Part shown: positions 9,171-20,995 of the stretch, in pieces
Position numbering within the stretch: position 1 is the first letter of the stretch
Layout of the letters: the number at the start of each line of letters is the position of its first letter
NCBI GenBank assembly: GCA_012517315.1
Contig: JAAYVE010000029.1
Location: 62,001-126,000, forward strand
Direction of reading: 5' to 3'
Source: Deltaproteobacteria bacterium
GTDB taxonomy: Bacteria; Desulfobacterota; Syntrophobacteria; Syntrophobacterales; Syntrophobacteraceae
Length of the DNA: 64,000 nucleotides
Notes under the pieces: generated by a model
What the model was told of the DNA's origin: nothing
Seen by the model: the letters and a program-made list of their open reading frames with translations, nothing else
Databases searched by the model: none
Made by a program: the position numbers and the translations under genes

Positions 9171-9953
9171 CTACGTGTCGGTCCGACGCAGCTTGAGGTA
9201 AGGCTTGTTGAGGAGGGAAAAGGAAAGCCATTTCATTCCCAGTCGGAGCAAACCGGTATCGTCCATTATGGCGGCTTGCTTTTCTGCTGCGTCGATTTCA
9301 AAAAGAGTCAGGAAACGCGTAGAGAGGACGAACTTCCGAAATCGCTCCGAGTCGTAACAGACCATGTAGAACATTTGCTGCTGCTTTTCAGACAGCCGTC
9401 CTTTCTTCTGAAGACCTTTATCGGTTATGAGTTCCATCCACAAGTTGTTCAGTTCGTGATAGGGTTCGAGACCCTGATCGAGGAGCCACTTTTCCACCGA
9501 CCACTCTTTTGCCTCTTCAAATCCCCGGCAGTGGGTTTCCTTAAGGAGAAAGTAGCTTTCCACCAAGGTGCCGTGGAGGGGGTGCATCCTGCTTGCCCGT
9601 GCCACAGGATAGATCCGGCATGCACTGGGGCGATCTTCGTAAATGGCACAGCCCTCAGAGGAGACAAAAGGGCATGTCTTCCTCTCGTTTTCCTCCATTC
9701 GGAGGTGTATCATGGGCAGACACCGCTTCTCGTCCAGATGAACCTCCCCGTATTTTTCGATGAAGGCATCCGTCGCCAAGCCCAGACGCGTTTTCATGCG
9801 GAGAATGTCATAGGGTGTGAGCAGGAGGCGAAGGTCTCGGCAACATTCCGTGAAGCAAGACACCCCCGGATGGCAAGCGAATCGGAAAGAACCATTTTCG
9901 ATGGGCTGAAGCAGATCCTGTATGACATCAGGGGCGGTTTCCTGCAGGGACAT
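9171..9953 (-). CDS. YkgJ-type cysteine-cluster protein, paralogue 2
   Basis: A 260-residue protein of the YkgJ family (CxxCxxCC-type, thought to bind a zinc or iron-sulfur centre). The N-terminal cluster is FACHPGVSCFTECC and the second is GCAIYEDRPSACRIYP. The function of the family is not firmly known. The start at 9953 follows GGAAAG and lies 22 bases after the stop of its paralogue, so both are co-transcribed. They share the segment LLTPYD and the same motif spacing, pointing to tandem duplication. The operon seems to continue from qmoA-qmoB-hdrD-like upstream. Confidence 0.8.
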   Translation of the reverse strand: MSLQETAPDVIQDLLQPIENGSFRFACHPGVSCFTECCRDLRLLLTPYDILRMKTRLGLATDAFIEKYGEVHLDEKRCLPMIHLRMEENERKTCPFVSSEGCAIYEDRPSACRIYPVARASRMHPLHGTLVESYFLLKETHCRGFEEAKEWSVEKWLLDQGLEPYHELNNLWMELITDKGLQKKGRLSEKQQQMFYMVCYDSERFRKFVLSTRFLTLFEIDAAEKQAAIMDDTGLLRLGMKWLSFSLLNKPYLKLRRTDT

Positions 9954-9975
9954 GGGCTTTCCTTTCCGGTCTTCA

Positions 9976-10698
9976 TCATGGATGTTCGAGGAGTTCTTCC
10001 AGTTGATTGCGAATGTACTGAAAGGCGAGTCGCAGAAGAAGTTCTTTGTCTTCTTCCACGCGACGGAGGAGCTCGTCGTCGATTTCATAAAACGATCTCA
10101 CCTTGGAGTCTTGGAGAAGACCGGCGAAACGATCCAAGTCGTAAGCAAGGAAAAGAATCTTGCCTATTCCGGCCGAACCGGCTTTCGCAGGGTCGTACCC
10201 CGGCGGCATAACCGACTGAAAGGCCTGTTCCATGAGCACGTACGGTTGCACTCCCTGGCCGTCCAACCACTCGTTCACAGGCATGGAAGACTTCTCCAAA
10301 AGACCGAGGCAGCGCTCCTTGCCGATGATGAGCGTGTATTCTCCTTCCCGCATGACCAAGTCCAGGGGATACATGCGGCATGCCCAGGGACGATCCTCGT
10401 ACACACTGCAGCCCTCATCGGTGACCAGCTTGCAGTAGAGAGTCTCCGGATCCATGGCGAGTTGCACTACCGGGATTTGTCCTGCCCCGGCCAAGTAGTG
10501 GATGGTGTGTTTCCGCAGGAATTCCCCGGAACTCAATTTCAGAGCCTGGCGAAGCCTCAGAAGATCATAGGGTGTGAGAAAGATGTTCACGTCCCGGCAG
10601 CACTGAGTGAAACAGGGCAGGGAACTGTGACATTTGAAATGAAAGATGCTTTGAGTGCTGAAGCGGATTTTTCCATTTTCCTTTGTTTCCGGTTTCAT
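9976..10698 (-). CDS. YkgJ-type cysteine-cluster protein, paralogue 1
   Basis: A 240-residue paralogue of the following gene. It carries FKCHSSLPCFTQCC near residue 20 and GCSVYEDRPWACRMYP in the middle, the two halves of the YkgJ metal site. The start at 10698 follows AGAGGA. It lies 55 bases downstream of the small cysteine-rich gene and in the same direction as the Qmo genes. A role in cluster delivery, thiol chemistry or maturation of the APS reductase electron chain would be consistent with the position, but this is inference only. Confidence 0.8.
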   Translation of the reverse strand: MKPETKENGKIRFSTQSIFHFKCHSSLPCFTQCCRDVNIFLTPYDLLRLRQALKLSSGEFLRKHTIHYLAGAGQIPVVQLAMDPETLYCKLVTDEGCSVYEDRPWACRMYPLDLVMREGEYTLIIGKERCLGLLEKSSMPVNEWLDGQGVQPYVLMEQAFQSVMPPGYDPAKAGSAGIGKILFLAYDLDRFAGLLQDSKVRSFYEIDDELLRRVEEDKELLLRLAFQYIRNQLEELLEHP

Positions 10699-10753
10699 GT
10701 GCAATCCTCTGTTTGCCCCGTTCGAGCCGGCCTGTGCAATTCGGCTTCTGCCA

Positions 10754-11014
10754 TCACCTGTTGAGGACCATCGCCTGGTAGTCCCGGAAACTAGGATTGC
10801 CGCGAATGAGCCTTTCCACCGCCTGGAGAATTTCCACATCCTCACAGGCAATGAAACGACAGTCGCACTTGCGTTGGCAATTGGGGCAGTAGTAATCCTC
10901 TTCCAGGGGGGTTCCGCAGGCGCAGGATGGCTCCATCACCAGTTCTCCGTTCTCCGCGTGGGCCCAATAGTAATCCAACCCCTTCAACTTGAGTTCATTC
11001 AGGCTGATCCGCAT
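10754..11014 (-). CDS. Small cysteine-rich zinc-knuckle protein
   Basis: An 86-residue protein with a dense cysteine centre (CACGTPLEEDYYCPNCQRKCDC, here given in two parts: CACG then CPNCQRKCDC), giving seven or eight potential metal ligands. The remainder is helical (VEILQAVERLIRG). I do not recognise a named family. It is 109 bases after the HdrD-like gene and 55 bases before the first YkgJ-type gene on the same strand, so it is probably the fourth gene of the qmo transcript. Confidence 0.65.
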   Translation of the reverse strand: MRISLNELKLKGLDYYWAHAENGELVMEPSCACGTPLEEDYYCPNCQRKCDCRFIACEDVEILQAVERLIRGNPSFRDYQAMVLNR

Positions 11015-11123: not shown

Positions 11124-12287
11124 TCAACTCAGGGTCCTGGAGAGCACTTCAGACAATTCAGCGATCTCCAGGGCATCTTGTCGACCGAGGCTTGTACACG
11201 CATCCGTGAGCATGTTGACGCAGTAGGGACAAGCCGTTGCGAGAATCTCGGCACCCCGTGCACAAGCGTCCTCAATGCGCAATTCTCCAAACCGTTCCCC
11301 CATGGGAACTTCACCCCAAATGCGGCCCCCTCCGCCGGCACAGCAAAGGCTCATTTCCCTGGTGCGATTCAACTCCACCGCGTGGCACCCTGGAAGACTT
11401 TTGAGAAGGTTTCGGGGTGGCTCATACAACCCCCCGTGCCTTCCGAGGTAACAGGGGTCATGGAAAGCGACGCGCTTGCCGGTTTCCCGGGAAAAACTGA
11501 GTTTCCCCTGCTGGACGGCCCGGTCAAGAATCTCGGTGTAGTGGAAAACCTCCCACTCCCCTCCCATCGCCGGGTACTCATTTTTGAAAGACCATGTGCA
11601 GTGTGGTGATGTGGTGATGATTTTTGTGACCCCTCTGCCGTTGAAGAGGCCTATGTTCGATTCGGCCAGCTTCTGAAAGAGTTCCTCATCTCCAATCTTG
11701 CGCATGCTCTCCCCGCAGCAGCTTTCCTCCACGCCGATGACTCCGAAACTCACTTGCGCAGCGGTGAGAAGGCGCACAATGCTCTTGGCGATCTTTGTGC
11801 TGCGGGGGTCATAACAGGAATGACAGCATACGAAAAGAAAATATTCCCTGTCCGGGCCGAACTGGGGGACATCAAGTCCGCTTTGCCATTCCGTCCTCTT
11901 CTCCCTTGGGCCGGACCATGGATTTCCATTGGCGTGGGCGCTGCCGAGAATGGGTCTCAGACTGCCGGGAGCCATCCCGGCACCCACGATACTCGCCCTC
12001 ATGGCACGGACATTGTCGATGATCTTCACTCCCCGCGGGCAGTTGACCTGACAGGTGCCGCAAGTGGTGCACGCAAAAAGAGACTTTTCATCTTCGAACC
12101 CCTCCATCCCCATCTGTCCAAGGCGCTGCATGTGACGAATATTGAACGATTCGCTTGTTTCCCCGGGGACCAGCCGCCATGGGCAAAGATTGGTGCACAG
12201 TCCGCATTGCATGCACCAGTTGAGGGTCTCTGCCCCCATCTCCCAGATGTAGTCTCTCATTTCCAACGAAATGTTCTTGGGGTCCAT
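11124..12287 (-). CDS. Heterodisulfide reductase HdrC-HdrB (HdrD-like) fusion in the QmoC position
   Basis: A 387-residue soluble iron-sulfur protein. Residues 25-35 (C-x2-C-x2-C-x3-C) and 73-83 (C-x2-C-x2-C-x3-C) are two [4Fe-4S] motifs of the HdrC type. Two CCG domains follow, with CCHSC/CCGESM and DPCYLG/LCCAGGGG, the HdrB/HdrD signature for a noncubane cluster. No membrane helix is present. In most deltaproteobacterial sulfate reducers the third Qmo gene encodes QmoC, a membrane haem-b subunit; Gram-positive sulfate reducers instead have HdrBC next to qmoAB. This gene would be a fused version of that arrangement. It follows qmoB by 149 bases. Confidence 0.88.
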   Translation of the reverse strand: MDPKNISLEMRDYIWEMGAETLNWCMQCGLCTNLCPWRLVPGETSESFNIRHMQRLGQMGMEGFEDEKSLFACTTCGTCQVNCPRGVKIIDNVRAMRASIVGAGMAPGSLRPILGSAHANGNPWSGPREKRTEWQSGLDVPQFGPDREYFLFVCCHSCYDPRSTKIAKSIVRLLTAAQVSFGVIGVEESCCGESMRKIGDEELFQKLAESNIGLFNGRGVTKIITTSPHCTWSFKNEYPAMGGEWEVFHYTEILDRAVQQGKLSFSRETGKRVAFHDPCYLGRHGGLYEPPRNLLKSLPGCHAVELNRTREMSLCCAGGGGRIWGEVPMGERFGELRIEDACARGAEILATACPYCVNMLTDACTSLGRQDALEIAELSEVLSRTLS

Positions 12288-12436: not shown

Positions 12437-14656
12437 TCAGTACCCCTTGTAAGGGTTGGGACCGAGTTCTTCGAGCCTTGCGGCGAAGGACTCCAGTATT
12501 TCGGGCAGCCGTGGATAATCCGCAATGGAGAGTTGTTCCAGGCGAACACGATCAGATTCGAGAACCAGCCGATTGAGGGTTTCCTGGATTTTGCTCATTC
12601 GAATCTGAGCCAACTCACTTCCCTTGATAAAATGGCACTGGTAGTCCTCCCCGTGCCTGCAACCGAGAAGCAGAATGCCGTCGATGCCCTTCGAGAGGGC
12701 ATCGGCAATCCAAACCAGATTCATGGAGCCAAGGCAACGCAGAGGAATGATTCGGAACCAGGGGGAGTACGACAATCTCTTGATTCCTGCAAGGTCCAGG
12801 GCGGGATAGGCGTCGTTTTCGCAGGCAAGCACCAGAATGCGGGGCTTCTCCTCGTATTCGTCGGGCACCTGGATGCTCTTGATCATGTTGCCGATCATGC
12901 CCACGGAATAATTCCTGAATGAGATGATCCGCTCAGGGCATGCCCCCATGCAGACTCCACAGCGGCGGCAGCGGGTCGGGTTCGGGAGGGGATTGGCTTT
13001 CTCGTCTTCGTTGATGGCTCCAAAGGGACATTCCTCGGTGCACCGCTTGCATTGGGTGCAGCGCTGCATGAAAAATTCTGGGTAACTGAGGTCGCCGGAT
13101 CGAGGGTGCACGGCTCCACCTCTCGAAGTCATTTCCACGCATTGAATTGCCTTGAGGGCTGCTCCCGCAGCGTCTTCCACAGCCCGTGCCCAGTCCATGG
13201 GTGCCCGTACCGTGCCGGCGGGATAAATCCCCGTGCGGCGGGATTCGTAGGGAAAACAGATGAAGTGGGAGTCGGGGAAGCCGTACTTGAGGGCGGGGAG
13301 TTCGGGGCCCTGGCGGTATTGTAGATTGAGAATGTCCGATGCGATGATGCTGTCTGCAGGGGCGGCGGGAGTCTCCTCGCCCTCGGCGGGCGTCTGTGCC
13401 TTGAAGGGTTCACCCATGGCCGTGGTGGGGACCATCCCGTTGGCAAGGACCACGAGATCCACGCTTTCCGTAGTTACAGGGGCACCTGTGAGGATGTCGT
13501 CCGCTGTGACGATCAAGCCCCCGGAGCCGTCGTCCTCAACCCCGGTCACCGTTCCCCGAACGAAAATCGTCCCATCCTTTTGGAGTTGTTTGTAGAAGAG
13601 TTCATAATGCCCATGGGCTCTCAGATCCCTGTAAAAGATATAGACGGGGGTCTGGGGATTGGACATCTTGAAGTACTTGGCCTGCTTTAGGGATTCGATG
13701 CAACAGGCCGAGGAACAATAGGGCAGGTGGTCGGGATCCCTTGAACCGGCGCAGAGGATGAAAGCTACACTGCTTACCGGTTCGCCGTTGGAGGGACGAA
13801 CCACACTGGTGGACGTGAACATGGATTCCAGTTGGAGTGCGGTGATCACATCGGGAAAAACCCCATAACCCAAGTGCCCCAACTTGTGTGGGTCGTAGGG
13901 AACTGCACCGGTGCAAAGGACAACAGCTCCCACTCGTTCCGCCACGGGACCACCGTTCACGTCGATTTCCACGTCAAACAGGCACGGCCCGCCCGAAATC
14001 CGGGCGATGCGGGCTTTCTGGTAAACCTTGATGTTTTCCGTCGCCAAGAGTTGTTCTACCTGAGCCTGGAGATCGAAATCCCGCAACTCTTCGTATGGAG
14101 GTCCCGAGGGGGGCAGTTTGTGAACGGATTTCATGTATCCCCCCAACTGATCGCTCTTTTCCACTAGCACAGCTTCATAACCCGCCTTGGCCGTCTCCAT
14201 GGCGGCGGTCATTCCCGCAAGCCCGCCCCCAACCACCAAGATCCGCTTACTGAAATCGTCCTGGCTGAAAGGCGCTGGCGGCTCACATTCCAGCGCCTTA
14301 ATAATTCCCATTCTCAACTGGTCCTGGGCAAGCATCTGCGTATCCTCATCATTGGCGGCATGACACCAGATCACCTGCTCCCTCAGGTTCACACGCTCCA
14401 GTACGGTGCCGGGTCCGAAGTCGAACACATCGTGCATCACTCGCGGCGAGCACGCGGCGATGACCAGCCTATTCAAGCCCTCGACTTCCATGCATTGGCG
14501 AATGTACGCGATCCCTTCCGGACTGCACAGGCAGGGGTGTTCCCTGCAAATGCCCCCTTGAACGTGCTCGGAGGCGTCCCTTTTCAGCGATTCCAGGTCC
14601 AGTGATTGGGCGATGCCGCAACCGGCACAGACAAAGACCCCCGTTTTCTTCTCCAT
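12437..14656 (-). CDS. qmoB: QmoB, HdrA/MvhD-type subunit of the Qmo complex
   Basis: A 739-residue flavin and iron-sulfur protein of the quinone-interacting oxidoreductase that feeds electrons to APS reductase. It has an N-terminal cysteine cluster region (CAGCG, then ACSPRVMH), an FAD Rossmann motif VVGGGLAGMTAA near residue 140, two ferredoxin motifs (CTQCKRCTEECP and CRRCGVCMGACP) near residues 560-600 and a C-terminal MvhD-like domain with CRHGEDYQC. This HdrA plus MvhD layout is diagnostic for QmoB. It starts 4 bases after qmoA ends, so the two are translationally coupled. Confidence 0.95.
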   Translation of the reverse strand: MEKKTGVFVCAGCGIAQSLDLESLKRDASEHVQGGICREHPCLCSPEGIAYIRQCMEVEGLNRLVIAACSPRVMHDVFDFGPGTVLERVNLREQVIWCHAANDEDTQMLAQDQLRMGIIKALECEPPAPFSQDDFSKRILVVGGGLAGMTAAMETAKAGYEAVLVEKSDQLGGYMKSVHKLPPSGPPYEELRDFDLQAQVEQLLATENIKVYQKARIARISGGPCLFDVEIDVNGGPVAERVGAVVLCTGAVPYDPHKLGHLGYGVFPDVITALQLESMFTSTSVVRPSNGEPVSSVAFILCAGSRDPDHLPYCSSACCIESLKQAKYFKMSNPQTPVYIFYRDLRAHGHYELFYKQLQKDGTIFVRGTVTGVEDDGSGGLIVTADDILTGAPVTTESVDLVVLANGMVPTTAMGEPFKAQTPAEGEETPAAPADSIIASDILNLQYRQGPELPALKYGFPDSHFICFPYESRRTGIYPAGTVRAPMDWARAVEDAAGAALKAIQCVEMTSRGGAVHPRSGDLSYPEFFMQRCTQCKRCTEECPFGAINEDEKANPLPNPTRCRRCGVCMGACPERIISFRNYSVGMIGNMIKSIQVPDEYEEKPRILVLACENDAYPALDLAGIKRLSYSPWFRIIPLRCLGSMNLVWIADALSKGIDGILLLGCRHGEDYQCHFIKGSELAQIRMSKIQETLNRLVLESDRVRLEQLSIADYPRLPEILESFAARLEELGPNPYKGY

Positions 14657-14660
14657 CGCT

Positions 14661-15935
14661 TTATCCCCTCCTTGTGGCCTGAATCGCTCTCAGAGCGGCC
14701 GCAGTCGCTTCCTGAACACATGAAGCAACATCCATGGGAGCCGTGACGCAACCAGCCCCATAAATCCCCGGAATCCCGCCCTCGGAAAGGACGAAACCCA
14801 TGGCGTCCAAGGCCACCCGGGGATCCGAAGGGATCGCGTCCACTGCCGTGCTTGGAACCATTCCCGTAGCGAGAACGACCAAATCGAACGGCTCTTTGAG
14901 TATGCGGCCCGACCCCTGATCCTCCACCTGCAACGTGACAACCCCGCTCTCAGGGTCCTCCGTGATCTCCCCGACCTTTCCCTTCACGAGGCGCACCCGC
15001 TCGTCGGATTGCACTTTCACATAGAAATCCTCGTATTTCCCCAATGCGCGGATATCAATGTAAAAAATGGTGGCACGGGCTTCCGGTTCCTGTTCGAGCA
15101 GGTACGTGGCCTGTTTGAGCGATGCCAGGCAACAGATCCCCGAGCAATAGGGGAGATGGTTTTCATCCCTGGAACCAGCACACTGGACGAAGGCGATATG
15201 GTGCACCCCTTTTCCGTCAAAGGGGCGGAGGATCCTGCCGCCGGTCGGTCCACCGGGGGAGGCAAGCCGTTCCATAAGGACATTTGTGATGACGTTGCGG
15301 TGTTTTCCAAAGCCATAGTAATTGATCTTTTCGGCGGCATACGGTTGCCACCCTGTAGCCCAGATGACCGCCCCCACCTTAAGATCGAAAAGACGGGGTT
15401 GCATGTCTAGTTCGATGGCGCCGTACGGGCAGGACGCCTTGATCTTTTCCGCTTCCTCGGTTCCCAAAATTTCCGGGGCTAGGACATAGCGCATGGGAAA
15501 GGCGAATTCATGAGGCAGGTGGGCGGCCATCACTGAGCTCAGGCCGTAGTTGAAGGGATCCGGCACCTTGGTGACCGCGGCGGCCTCGCACGCACCGCAT
15601 CCTGTGCACCGTTCGTTCACGTATCGCGGCATCATGCGGATGGTCACGTCGAAATTGCCGGCCTCCCCGATGATCTTCTCTACCTGAGCAAGGGTGAACG
15701 TTCGAATGAGTGGGTTGTTCCGAATTCGGCGGAAGTTGATCTCAAGGCCGCAACTGGGGGGACAGAGTTTGGGAAAATACCTGTTCATCCGAGCCACCCG
15801 CCCCCCAAGGTAAGGCTCCCGCTCCACGAGGTACACCTGAAATCCTGCTTCAGCGGCTTCCAGAGCGGCACTGAGCCCACTCATGCCACCGCCGACAACC
15901 AGGATGCTCCGGTTTCCTTCAAGACTACTGCTCAT
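14661..15935 (-). CDS. qmoA: QmoA, HdrA-like flavoprotein subunit of the Qmo complex
   Basis: A 424-residue FAD protein resembling the flavin part of heterodisulfide reductase HdrA. The dinucleotide motif VVGGGMSGLSAALEA begins near residue 13, CPPSCG follows near residue 60, a single cysteine cluster CTGCGACE lies near residue 110, and CSGICCLASLKQA is typical of HdrA/QmoA. With QmoB it forms the soluble half of the complex linking menaquinol to AprBA. It is the first gene of the qmo transcript; the preceding gene ends in a hairpin 480 bases upstream, and an FNR-like box lies in that gap. The start at 15935 follows GGAGGACATTTT. Confidence 0.95.
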   Translation of the reverse strand: MSSSLEGNRSILVVGGGMSGLSAALEAAEAGFQVYLVEREPYLGGRVARMNRYFPKLCPPSCGLEINFRRIRNNPLIRTFTLAQVEKIIGEAGNFDVTIRMMPRYVNERCTGCGACEAAAVTKVPDPFNYGLSSVMAAHLPHEFAFPMRYVLAPEILGTEEAEKIKASCPYGAIELDMQPRLFDLKVGAVIWATGWQPYAAEKINYYGFGKHRNVITNVLMERLASPGGPTGGRILRPFDGKGVHHIAFVQCAGSRDENHLPYCSGICCLASLKQATYLLEQEPEARATIFYIDIRALGKYEDFYVKVQSDERVRLVKGKVGEITEDPESGVVTLQVEDQGSGRILKEPFDLVVLATGMVPSTAVDAIPSDPRVALDAMGFVLSEGGIPGIYGAGCVTAPMDVASCVQEATAAALRAIQATRRG

Positions 15936-16494: not shown

Positions 16495-16794
16495 CTAGAA
16501 AGTTTTCAGGAAATCATCCAGTACGTCAATGCTCTTCTTCTGAATGACGAGATCAAAGATCTTGTCCTTCTGCTTGCGGGGAATCAACTCGATGCTCTTG
16601 GTGGTGGCGGAGTCGAACTTCGCCTGGGGAATCACCTGCAGAATCTTGTCCTTTTGAGCATCGTTGGCATAAACGTAAATGACCTTCAGGCCTGCCATGG
16701 CTTCCTTGCACATGTCCGCAAGGCCCGCAGCCTGCAGTTTTGCGTATCTCTCCTCGTTGACCCAGAGGTTGATGGGGTATTTTCCTTCTGACAT
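16495..16794 (-). CDS. Sat-linked small protein of unknown function
   Basis: A 99-residue soluble protein, probably alpha/beta (alternating PINLWV, LKVIYVYA, SIELIPR strands and KLQAAGLADMCKEAMA, DKIFDLVI helices), with one cysteine and no catalytic motif I know. The start at 16794 is preferred because GAGGAG then has a 7-base spacing; an in-frame GTG lies two codons earlier. It begins only 13 bases after sat ends and is followed by a hairpin, so it is a sat-operon gene. A role in sulfate activation or Sat/Apr interaction is suggested by position alone. Confidence 0.8.
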   Translation of the reverse strand: MSEGKYPINLWVNEERYAKLQAAGLADMCKEAMAGLKVIYVYANDAQKDKILQVIPQAKFDSATTKSIELIPRKQKDKIFDLVIQKKSIDVLDDFLKTF

Positions 16795-16807
16795 GGTCAC
16801 GCTCCTC

Positions 16808-18067
16808 TTAAGCTTTCAGGGGTTCGATTGAGAAAACGGGAGTTCTCTTCTCCAGGTACTCGTCGGTGACGAAGGGGGAACCGAATCCGTACTTTTCCGC
16901 GCATTCCATGACCAGGTCGAAGACCTCGGGGCGGAAGATGAGGCGCGGCGGTTTGACACCGTCATCCACGATGCTCCGGATGAGGGTTCCGCTGAACTTC
17001 TGCCACTCGCTCTTGTGATTGCACAGCCCTTCGGAGGTCACCTCGCCGCAGTGCGGACAATAGAGCCAGTTCATGGAATAGACGGGGGTAATGTCCAATT
17101 CATCCTGGATCGTCGCGAGCAGATTGTGGGCGTCGTAGGCGCCATAGTAGGTGCCAACACCCGCATGATCGCGGCCGAACATGTGGTGGGTGAGCCCAAG
17201 GTTGGTCCTCAGGATGGAGTGGAAAACGGCTTCCTTGGGTCCTGCGTAGCGCATATCCCAGAACGTGAGGGAAGTCAGGTGGTTGTGATCTCCGAAGTAG
17301 CCGGACTTTCTCAGTTCATCCTGGGTGAGGATGATGGCTTCGTCGATGTAGTCGCCTTTCCTCTTTTCACCGATGATGGCGTTCACCAGCACGCCGACGT
17401 AAGGTTTGTCAATGGGGAGTTCAGCATAGGTCTGACTCCAGGCGCCTTTCATGAGCCACTCATGGCCAGTGTGGGGAACGTTCCGTGTCTGGTGGGCCAC
17501 GATGCGTTTCCATCCCCGCTCCTCGAATTTCTTGCGCATCTCGAGGGGGGTGATGAAATAAGGACCGTAAGGCTCGTTGATCTTGGGACGGTTCACGAGG
17601 GTGATCTTGCCGCCGATGAATTTCTCCGCATACTTATAAGTCCTGGCGCAACCGGGATGTTTGTCTTCCGTTGTCCCGTAAATGGCCTGTGCCATTTCCT
17701 TCTTGTCATAGGTGAAGATCTCTTCCACTTCGAAGAGGGCCATAGGATTGCCCATGTAAGTGAGGACCACCGACTTGCCGGGGGTGATGCCGTACTTGCC
17801 AATCTCTGCGTCGGACATATCAAAAACGATGGGGATACTCCACACGACGCCGCTGGCAAGGCGCATCTTCTTGCAGACGGAGTCCACATCCGCACTGTTC
17901 ATGAAGCCTTCGAGTGGGCTGAAGAAGCCGTAGGAAATACCGATGACCTCGTTGGCGATCTGGCTTCGGATGGGCACCTGCGGCAGTCCCTGGATTTTCT
18001 TCACCGCTTCTGCGGGTTCCAGGATTCTTTCGACGATCGGTTTGCGACCATGTCCTATTGCGGCCAT
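16808..18067 (-). CDS. sat: Sulfate adenylyltransferase (ATP sulfurylase)
   Basis: A 419-residue homooligomeric bacterial/archaeal-type ATP sulfurylase that activates sulfate to APS with ATP in the cytoplasm, the first step of dissimilatory sulfate reduction. The nucleotidyltransferase motif QTRNVPHTGHEW and the downstream GRDHAGVG hold the ATP-binding residues. The YCPHCG...CNH group (about residues 340-360) is the zinc site found in prokaryotic Sat. There is no APS-kinase domain. The start follows AAAGGAGAGAGAA. A strong terminator separates it from aprA, so either read-through or a promoter in the 50-base gap drives it; no such promoter is clear. Confidence 0.97.
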   Translation of the reverse strand: MAAIGHGRKPIVERILEPAEAVKKIQGLPQVPIRSQIANEVIGISYGFFSPLEGFMNSADVDSVCKKMRLASGVVWSIPIVFDMSDAEIGKYGITPGKSVVLTYMGNPMALFEVEEIFTYDKKEMAQAIYGTTEDKHPGCARTYKYAEKFIGGKITLVNRPKINEPYGPYFITPLEMRKKFEERGWKRIVAHQTRNVPHTGHEWLMKGAWSQTYAELPIDKPYVGVLVNAIIGEKRKGDYIDEAIILTQDELRKSGYFGDHNHLTSLTFWDMRYAGPKEAVFHSILRTNLGLTHHMFGRDHAGVGTYYGAYDAHNLLATIQDELDITPVYSMNWLYCPHCGEVTSEGLCNHKSEWQKFSGTLIRSIVDDGVKPPRLIFRPEVFDLVMECAEKYGFGSPFVTDEYLEKRTPVFSIEPLKA

Positions 18068-18180: not shown

Positions 18181-20094
18181 TTAGACCGGCAGGTTGATGA
18201 TGGGAACCTTCTTCAGGGTCCATTCACCGGTCTTGGGATTCCAAACCGAATTCACGAAGCACTTCCAGTTGGCCTCGTCCATTTTCGGGAAGTCGGCACG
18301 GTAATAATACCCCGGCCAACGGCTCTCTTCGCGGAAGAGGACATGACGCAGGTGGCTTTCGGCGATCCACATGCGGTGGGTGTTCTCCCATGCACGCATT
18401 AGTTCGTGGAGGTCGGCGGCCGCCAACTTCTCGGAGTCTTCCTTCAGCATGCCGAGGAGTTCGAGACCTCTCTCCAGAAGGGACTTGTTGGTGGTGAACT
18501 GGGAGCTCACGCCGGCGCAGTATTCATCCATGATCTTCTGGAGGCGGAACATAAACATCTTGGGTTTGATGAAATTGGGGTTGATGTCGGGATCACTCGA
18601 GAGGGCGTGGAACTGCTCGAACCGAGCCATGGGGGCCAGGATGGTTTCTTTCATCTTGGCGACCACGGCATCATCCACCTTGGGGGCCACGTTATTGTCC
18701 AGGATGTAAGCGATGGCGCCCTTGGCGGCGATGCGGCCTTCCGCATGGGAACCGGAGGAGAATTTGTGGCTGGAGGCACCGGCGCCGTCACCGGCCGTGA
18801 ACAATCCCTTGACGGTGGTCATGTGATTGTACACGCCGATGGGTTCCCACTGCTTGCGGTATTCTGCAGGCATCACGTCTTCGGGGCCGCACACCCAGGC
18901 GCCTGAGGCACCGGAGTGGGAACCGATGAAGTAAGGCTCGGCAGCGGCGATTTCAGAAGACCGCTCTTCGGGCTGGATGTTCATGCCGGCCCACAGGAGG
19001 GACTGGCTGATGGTCATATCCAGGAAGTCTTCCCACGCCTCGGCTTCCAGTTCCTTCATCTTCTTTTTGAAAGCCTTGGGATCGTCCTTGTATTTGGCGG
19101 CGAGGTTGGCGATGGCCTCTTCCGTCCTCATATAGATGGGACCCTTACCCGCCATGACGTCTTCCATGCCCAGCCAGTTGCGGAGGTTGGCGGGGATGGG
19201 CTTGCCCGTTCCGTAAGGAGCCCACTGGGGCAGTTCGTCGGCGCGGGTCACCATGTATTCTTCACCGAAGGCATTGGTTGCACGGGACTTGAACAGGAGG
19301 AACCAGGCTCCCACAGGGCCGTAGCCGTCCTTGAAGCGGACGGGGATGAAGCGGACTTCCTGGCAGGTCATTTCCGCACCGGCGCGAATGGTGAAATATG
19401 CGGTGGAGCCGGCGTTCCAGGGGGGATACCAGGCGCGGCCGAGACCCTCACCCACGGATCGGGGACGGAACACATGCACGGCACCGCCCATGCAGGCGAT
19501 GGTCGCTTTGGCCTTGAAAACGTAAAACTTGTTCTCGCGGACGCTGAAGCCCACGCCGCCCAGGCACTTATTGTTGTCGTAGTCCATGAGCGGTTCAACG
19601 ATGAAAACGCGCTCATAGAGCCAGTCGGTGAAACCGGCCTCGTTCATGGCGTTTTTCGCAGCCTCGGCGACGATGACCTTGTAGGACTCGCCGTTGATCA
19701 TGATCTGCCAGCGGCCTTCATTCACGTAGTTGCCCTGCTCGTCCTTCCAAATGGGAAGGCCCCACTTTTCGAACAGATGCACGGTGGAGTCCACGTGACG
19801 GGCGATATCATAGACCAGGTCTTCCCGGGATACGCCCATGAGATCCTGGCGGACGTACTTGACATAGTCTTCCAGGGTGTTCACGCCCTTGGCGTAGTTG
19901 ATGTACTGATTGATGGCGGAGAGACCCATGGCGACGGCGCCGGAACGGTCCATGGCGGCCTTGTCCACCACCACAACCTTAAGCCCGTTTTTCTTCGCCC
20001 AGTAGGCCGCCTCGAAAGTGGCGCCGCATGCGGACATGCCACCGCCAATGATGAGCAGATCAGTATCGACGACTACAGTTTCAAAATTAGGCAT
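18181..20094 (-). CDS. aprA: APS reductase alpha subunit
   Basis: A 637-residue FAD subunit of dissimilatory adenylylsulfate reductase, which reduces APS to sulfite and AMP in the cytoplasm. The N-terminal FAD motif IIGGGMSACGATFEAAYWAK starts near residue 14; SGAVAMGLSAINQYIN follows, typical of AprA within the fumarate-reductase superfamily. Length matches the family (about 630-665). It is 24 bases after aprB and shares its transcript. The mRNA is closed by a strong terminator. Electrons arrive from QmoAB through AprB. Confidence 0.97.
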   Translation of the reverse strand: MPNFETVVVDTDLLIIGGGMSACGATFEAAYWAKKNGLKVVVVDKAAMDRSGAVAMGLSAINQYINYAKGVNTLEDYVKYVRQDLMGVSREDLVYDIARHVDSTVHLFEKWGLPIWKDEQGNYVNEGRWQIMINGESYKVIVAEAAKNAMNEAGFTDWLYERVFIVEPLMDYDNNKCLGGVGFSVRENKFYVFKAKATIACMGGAVHVFRPRSVGEGLGRAWYPPWNAGSTAYFTIRAGAEMTCQEVRFIPVRFKDGYGPVGAWFLLFKSRATNAFGEEYMVTRADELPQWAPYGTGKPIPANLRNWLGMEDVMAGKGPIYMRTEEAIANLAAKYKDDPKAFKKKMKELEAEAWEDFLDMTISQSLLWAGMNIQPEERSSEIAAAEPYFIGSHSGASGAWVCGPEDVMPAEYRKQWEPIGVYNHMTTVKGLFTAGDGAGASSHKFSSGSHAEGRIAAKGAIAYILDNNVAPKVDDAVVAKMKETILAPMARFEQFHALSSDPDINPNFIKPKMFMFRLQKIMDEYCAGVSSQFTTNKSLLERGLELLGMLKEDSEKLAAADLHELMRAWENTHRMWIAESHLRHVLFREESRWPGYYYRADFPKMDEANWKCFVNSVWNPKTGEWTLKKVPIINLPV

Positions 20095-20118: not shown

Positions 20119-20562
20119 TTACTTCTTCAGTGTGGGAAGCGTGGCTTGGCCGGTGGAAGCCGGTTCCGTGCAGAGGATCGGGCTCTTGATGTCGTCTGTG
20201 CCTGTCTCGAAGCCGGCCAGAGGGTTGGCCTTGCCTTCCGGGGTCGTCCGGATGGGGAATTTGAAGCGCTTCACCTGACCGTTGCGGAACTTGACGGTCC
20301 ACATGATATCTTCGGATCCGCGGAGGGGTACCACCGATGCTCCCATGGGTACGAAGTCGGCATAGGCGCGAACGTCAATCGCCTGCTGAGGACAAATCTT
20401 CACGCAGTTGTAGCACTCCCAGCACATCTCGGGTGCTCTGTTCCAGGCCTTCATCTTTTCTTTATCCAAAACCATGAGATCGTTGGGGCAGATGTACATG
20501 CATGCGGTCTTGTCCTGCCCTTTGCAACCATCGCATTTCTCAAGAATCACGTAACTTGGCAT
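20119..20562 (-). CDS. aprB: APS reductase beta subunit
   Basis: A 147-residue ferredoxin-like subunit with two [4Fe-4S] clusters. KCDGCKGQDKTACMYICP carries the extended first motif characteristic of AprB, and CWECYNCVKICP the second. The C-terminal tail wraps AprA in known structures. The start is put at 20562 because TAGGAG (about 20576-20571) touches the ATG at 20571 but is 9 bases from the one at 20562. It is the first gene of aprBA, with a consensus promoter about 430 bases upstream. Confidence 0.96.
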   Translation of the reverse strand: MPSYVILEKCDGCKGQDKTACMYICPNDLMVLDKEKMKAWNRAPEMCWECYNCVKICPQQAIDVRAYADFVPMGASVVPLRGSEDIMWTVKFRNGQVKRFKFPIRTTPEGKANPLAGFETGTDDIKSPILCTEPASTGQATLPTLKK

Positions 20563-20995
20563 AGTCTTCATCTCCTAATAGGTTTTGACTTCGTTTAGCC
20601 CAAAACTACACATTGATGGGATCTGCCACTTCGACCTGCGCGCACCTCCTTTCCTCTTGTGCAACTGGCCCCGAAATGCTTTCCATACTCATCTCAGAGC
20701 ATCAAAGCCAGTTCCATATGGTAGGGGATTCCAGACACGTTCCTGATGATGATGGTTCCAATTTCATTCGAGACCGGTGGAGTATCCGCTTCGGATTCTC
20801 GGGGGGGCGCGGCGACTCGAGGATTGGATCGCCCGAGAAAGAACCCGAAAGTTCGGACTATCCCCACCGCAGTGGAGGAATGGTCCGCTTGCCGGACAAG
20901 AAACATTCCAAAACACTTGGGAGTGTCTTGAGCCCAACGGCTTCCCTCGCTTGACTTGTACATTGATGCACAAAAAAGGACAAACCGCGAACGGC
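20563..20995 (-). other. Long leader of aprBA
   Basis: If the promoter at 20996-21023 is used, the mRNA has a leader of about 425 bases. The leader contains a perfect 10-base match to the anti-Shine-Dalgarno complement (AAAGGAGGTG, 20651-20642) about 70 bases before the aprB ribosome site. An open frame at 20963-20694 has an ATG but no good ribosome site. I do not recognise a known riboswitch. Confidence 0.45.

Follow-up and report, generated by a model that had tools for sequence, protein, structure and literature searches.

We have identified a gene cluster whose product is probably a soluble electron donor of APS reductase, QmoAB-HdrCB (QmoAB-HdrD), in a genome that also carries, on another contig, the genes for a membrane-anchored QmoABC. 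The cluster lies in the window, the 64,000-nucleotide stretch of DNA from a member of the Syntrophobacterales that was analysed here, and we assign this reading a probability of roughly 0.65. Whether sulfate respiration conserves energy in its first reductive step depends on the donor that reduces APS reductase, and an order that has Qmo systems of both kinds, membrane and soluble, for a single APS reductase is one in which this question can be put to a direct test. Among its members are syntrophs, in which the donor of the entering electrons may differ between growth with sulfate and growth without it.

The arrangement itself is already known. Kuever et al. 2014 (PMC4148979) described QmoAB linked to an Fe-S oxidoreductase/HdrD in Desulfosporosinus and in two Gram-negatives, Desulfomonile tiedjei and Syntrophobacter fumaroxidans (the latter genus appears once in print as Syntrophomonas). 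The same authors reported two systems for APS reductase in S. fumaroxidans and Desulfovirgula, and considered that the apr/qmo genes of the Syntrophobacterales probably came from Gram-positives. QmoAB-HdrBC and QmoAB-HdrD have been attributed to Gram-positives and some Deltaproteobacteria (PMC10504309). The window locus has the same partner set as the loci of Desulfosporosinus, D. tiedjei and S. fumaroxidans, with no QmoC beside qmoAB and no essential difference, and is another QmoAB-HdrD member, in the order of S. fumaroxidans. Added here to the known picture are an order-wide count, a QmoB tree, a distinction between fused and split HdrB, and a His signature.

The genes occur in the order aprB-aprA-sat-DUF6955-qmoA-qmoB-hdrCB on the minus strand (Table 1). 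The first-pass annotation had called qmoA and qmoB with confidence; both are indeed recognisable, directly upstream of hdrCB, on the same strand and within the apr/sat cluster.

Table 1. Positions in the window of hdrCB and the genes around it
Feature	Position	Strand	Remarks
hdrCB (HdrD-like third subunit)	11124..12287	-	387 aa, ATG start, soluble
qmoB	12437..14656	-	739 aa; HdrA-like, FAD, 4Fe-4S, C-terminal FlpD/MvhD domain
qmoA	14661..15935	-	424 aa; HdrA-like
DUF6955 gene	16495..16800	-	101 aa; between sat and qmoA
sat, sulfate adenylyltransferase	16808..18067	-	
aprA, APS reductase alpha	18181..20094	-	called from sequence, aprB adjacency and tblastn matches beside aprB in relatives
aprB, APS reductase beta	20119..20571	-	TIGR02060 above cut-off
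two tandem CxxCxxCC (PF03692) genes	9976-10851 and 9171-10088	both -	downstream of hdrCB

HdrCB is one soluble protein that combines two Fer4 motifs with a pair of CCG domains, and the open reading frame, Pfam and hydropathy agree with the earlier description of the third gene in these terms. The N-terminal half is an HdrC-like dicluster ferredoxin with two [4Fe-4S] motifs (Cys 25/28/31/35 and 73/76/79/83). CCG1 contains Cys 154/155/158, Cys 190/191 and the signature Ser227-Pro-His229-Cys230, and CCG2 contains Cys 279, 315/316 and 353/356. Pfam returned CCG over two stretches (E 4e-30) and Fer4_8 (E 1e-9). No membrane helix was predicted in HdrCB: the maximum 19-residue hydropathy is 1.44, with 0 windows above 1.6, compared with 2.77 for the QmoC of this genome. 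The QmoC profile NF038018 aligned with residues 8-115 only and scored 42 of the 300 bits expected of a QmoC. Identity of HdrCB within the order is 74-82%, and across 34 homologues every ligand-type Cys is invariant or close to it. With this conservation and its linkage to qmoB in the order, the open reading frame is not a chance one.

When the genome was searched with the QmoC family, a single match ran over nearly the full length. It lies on contig C47, where a second qmoAB is directly followed by a gene for a haem-b-type membrane subunit (qmoA-qmoB-qmoC). The protein is called QmoC-type on its position and make-up, without support from the curated model, since its score of about 202 bits lies below the NCBIfam cut-off of 300 bits. 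It combines two ferredoxin motifs with several stretches of strong hydrophobicity, and its eight ferredoxin Cys and three His (227, 341 and 360) are invariant over 61 sequences. The 18 kb of sequence read on either side of and including this qmoABC showed neither apr nor sat, and a genome search found only one copy of aprA. There are thus two Qmo systems for one APS reductase, and HdrCB is no replacement for QmoC in this organism. The first-pass annotation had proposed such a replacement and had named a separate qmoC elsewhere in the genome as evidence against it; with the contig C47 gene, subject to its score, the proposal is wrong for this organism. The two sets did not arise by a recent duplication, a possibility that was rejected because their QmoB proteins fall on separate starred branches and are 61% identical (QmoA, 60%). 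The genome also carries a DsrK above its curated cut-off.

Compared with QmoABC of the Desulfovibrio type, the window system shares QmoA, QmoB and the HdrC-like dicluster N-terminus of the third subunit (the HdrC halves of HdrCB and QmoC can be aligned at 35% identity over 86 aa), whereas the second half is CCG/HdrB-like and soluble rather than a haem-b membrane domain. QmoC, in which this shared module precedes the cytochrome b domain, and HdrCB thus look like one adapter whose second half can be exchanged.

The CCG1 domain sets the fused family apart. Ser-Pro-His is present in 34/34 homologues, and the next residue is Cys in 33/34. An HdrB has the five-Cys motif in both CCG domains; in HdrCB the set is complete in CCG2 (34/34), and in CCG1 Ser227 replaces the first Cys of CxxC in all 34. 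Eight split HdrB proteins of the Desulfotomaculum class have a complete CCG1 with CxxC (e.g. PCSSC), as does methanogen HdrB. BLAST of split HdrB against the HdrB half of HdrCB gave no significant match (best E 0.03), and split HdrC is 28-33% identical to HdrCB. The other CCG paralogues read in the genome have CPEG or CPEC at the signature position. A description of the fused family as distinct from a joined split pair was not found in the literature consulted.

By both sequence and predicted fold, the nearest solved relative is mycobacterial EtfD (PDB 9ojn), which has Cys-Pro-His-Cys at this position. The AlphaFold model of HdrCB (mean pLDDT 79, with low confidence at residues 1-24 and 108-123) matched EtfD with a Z of 30.1 over 355 residues and HdrB with a Z of 20 over the C-terminal half. 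HdrCB and EtfD have in common the CCG-domain fold and a His, H229 in HdrCB, which aligns with H583 of EtfD. H583 seals the noncubane cluster of EtfD and renders it non-catalytic (PMC13083937); for HdrCB, ligation of the cluster by His is a prediction. EtfD differs in having a membrane cytochrome b domain, ETF as donor and Thr for the second CCG1 Cys, whereas HdrCB keeps Cys190 and Cys191 and has a further two Cys, 154 and 158, that EtfD lacks and that are invariant or almost so. With these extra Cys, the HdrCB cluster may differ from the linear 3Fe cluster of EtfD and may still be reactive. The His signature, as compared with EtfD, the eight split HdrB proteins and methanogen HdrB, suggests that the CCG half of HdrCB serves as an electron relay rather than in disulfide chemistry. 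Archaeal HdrD does cleave a heterodisulfide. Ser-Pro-His-Cys could then serve as a simple sequence criterion for separating relay-type from HdrB-type third subunits.

The order was sampled with 37 genomes, including that of the window. A close orthologue of HdrCB was found in 34/37, and 33/37 have both HdrCB and QmoC; of the other four genomes, one has HdrCB without QmoC, and in three neither protein reached that level. Named members with HdrCB are Desulfacinum, Desulforhabdus, Desulfoferrobacter and Desulfosoma, and all four genomes searched for both systems (Desulfoferrobacter suflitae, Desulforhabdus sp. TSK, Desulfacinum hydrothermale and D. infernum) have them. In the order, hdrCB adjoins qmoB in 30/30 loci examined, and nearly every qmoC locus that was read has qmoC behind a different qmoB. 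Among the 198 qmoB loci examined overall, hdrCB is beside qmoB in 133 (a redundant count), and in three more hdrCB is followed by qmoC.

Outside the order, the gene after qmoAB encodes a fused HdrCB also in Desulfosporosinus, Acididesulfobacillus, Desulfovirgula and Desulfomonile, and the proteins of Desulfosporosinus, Desulfovirgula and Desulfomonile are 59-67% identical to the window protein. The statement that Gram-positives use separate HdrB and HdrC thus holds for the Desulfotomaculum class but not for Desulfosporosinus and Desulfovirgula. QmoC gave no match in four Desulfosporosinus/Acididesulfobacillus genomes with hdrCB, so that QmoAB-HdrCB seems sufficient there. D. acididurans of the genus Desulfosporosinus has two near-identical qmoAB-hdrCB copies and aprBA within about 13 kb (L096/L139).

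In the QmoB tree, the HdrCB-paired sequences of the order form one branch (99, starred) and the QmoC-paired sequences of the order, together with others of the phylum, another (99, starred). A Gram-positive branch (97, starred) is mixed, with partners that are fused HdrCB, split HdrC, QmoC or combinations of them, and Desulfomonile stands apart; the order of the three main branches is left open. In the HdrCB tree, the sequences of the order group with Gram-positive ones (99, starred) and are nested inside them at 87%, at a fork that is not starred. The trees are compatible with the transfer from Gram-positives proposed in PMC4148979.

In the proposed mechanism, HdrCB would dock on QmoA/QmoB through its HdrC-like N-terminal half, as its gene linkage suggests. 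Electrons from a soluble donor would pass through the CCG clusters to the two cubane clusters, the flavins of QmoA/B and finally AprB. With less certainty, the CCG half would act as a relay of the EtfD/HdrD type and not as a heterodisulfide-cleaving HdrB, because its first CCG motif is Ser-Pro-His-Cys rather than CxxC, with the invariant His at the cluster-closing position of EtfD. Depending on conditions, APS reductase could be fed by menaquinol through QmoABC or by a soluble donor through QmoAB-HdrCB. An electron entry to APS reductase that differs from the usual one, as the first-pass annotation had supposed, is likely given a soluble Fer4 and CCG third subunit after qmoAB. More tentatively, HdrCB may be a non-catalytic, His-closed relay of the EtfD type, unlike the catalytic HdrB of Desulfotomaculum, with the Syntrophobacterales switching between soluble and menaquinol entry to one APS reductase. 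If true, two chemically different feeds of APS reductase have been lumped as QmoAB-HdrBC/HdrD.

Four other readings were weighed. Flavin-based confurcation, in which the FADs of QmoA and QmoB would drive APS reduction by merging electrons from two donors, one of low potential (ferredoxin, or a dehydrogenase that docks on the QmoB FlpD domain) and one of higher potential that acts via HdrCB, is a possibility that we hold with clear reservation. QmoA and QmoB are HdrA-like flavoproteins, QmoB has the FlpD domain, and confurcation was proposed earlier for QmoABC, as quoted in PMC10553843; against this, the window cluster contains no partner gene. Confurcation is compatible with the soluble-donor reading and does not exclude it. 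Rather unlikely is that HdrCB is an active thiol/disulfide enzyme, acting on DsrC or a small thiol and exchanging electrons with APS reductase via QmoAB, much as HdrB acts on CoM-S-S-CoB. In HdrB it is the CCG domains that are catalytic, the five-Cys set of CCG2 is intact, and a split HdrB with the full catalytic motif occupies the same place in genomes of the Desulfotomaculum class; however, HdrCB has Ser227 in the CxxC, the invariant His229 corresponds to the residue that makes the EtfD cluster non-catalytic, and the closest fold is EtfD, not HdrB.

In a third reading, HdrCB and the contig C47 QmoC would join one larger Qmo complex, so that menaquinol entry would be kept. Desulfovirgula-type operons (L103, L114 and L142) have qmoA-qmoB-hdrCB-qmoC in a row, with both third subunits side by side, and genomes of the same family as the window encode natural fusions of a QmoC-like cytochrome b with an HdrCB-like protein, of 772-840 aa (L182:3242-5557, L183:8343-10862 and L184:3-1757, minus strand; one is cut by a contig end). 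The fusions adjoin other HdrA-like genes (in L182 and L183) and not apr/qmoAB, contig C47 has its own qmoAB, and the Desulfosporosinus genomes with hdrCB gave no QmoC match, which makes such a complex improbable. Least credible is an origin of the gene by plain fusion of the separate HdrC and HdrB of Gram-positives. The Desulfotomaculum pair shares with HdrCB its module order and its place after qmoAB; it differs in consisting of separate genes, in having CxxC in both CCG domains and no Ser-Pro-His-Cys, and in its weak similarity. This origin was rejected on the BLAST result, the HdrB-type CxxC motifs and the low identity of HdrC given above, and the QmoB partners of split HdrC form a starred branch of their own.

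Several further features of these loci were recorded. A hidden HdrE-like membrane partner in the cluster was rejected because the genes downstream of hdrCB encode two CxxCxxCC proteins, with no such domain. Of the named loci of the order that are long enough to show it, most have the CxxCxxCC pair downstream of hdrCB, and the pair was not detected in the Gram-positive and Desulfomonile loci; a similar pair adjoins a divergent aprA in four loci (L081, L084, L091 and L093). On contig C2 of the genome, a DsrK/HdrD-like CCG gene (L267, about 1344-2562) has one in-frame TGA in its first CCG motif (LPE*GHAYY), which is possibly selenocysteine. The DUF6955 gene is found beside sat also in Desulfovirgula (L103) and in L142, L094, L102 and L140, a linkage to sat/apr that extends across phyla. 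Promoter and terminator scans of the cluster gave little information overall, and the number of sigma-70 sites across the region was not above chance; a perfect 12/12 match to the consensus, TTGACA-16-TATAAT, stands out at 21023-20996 (minus strand) of the window, ~425 bases upstream of aprB.
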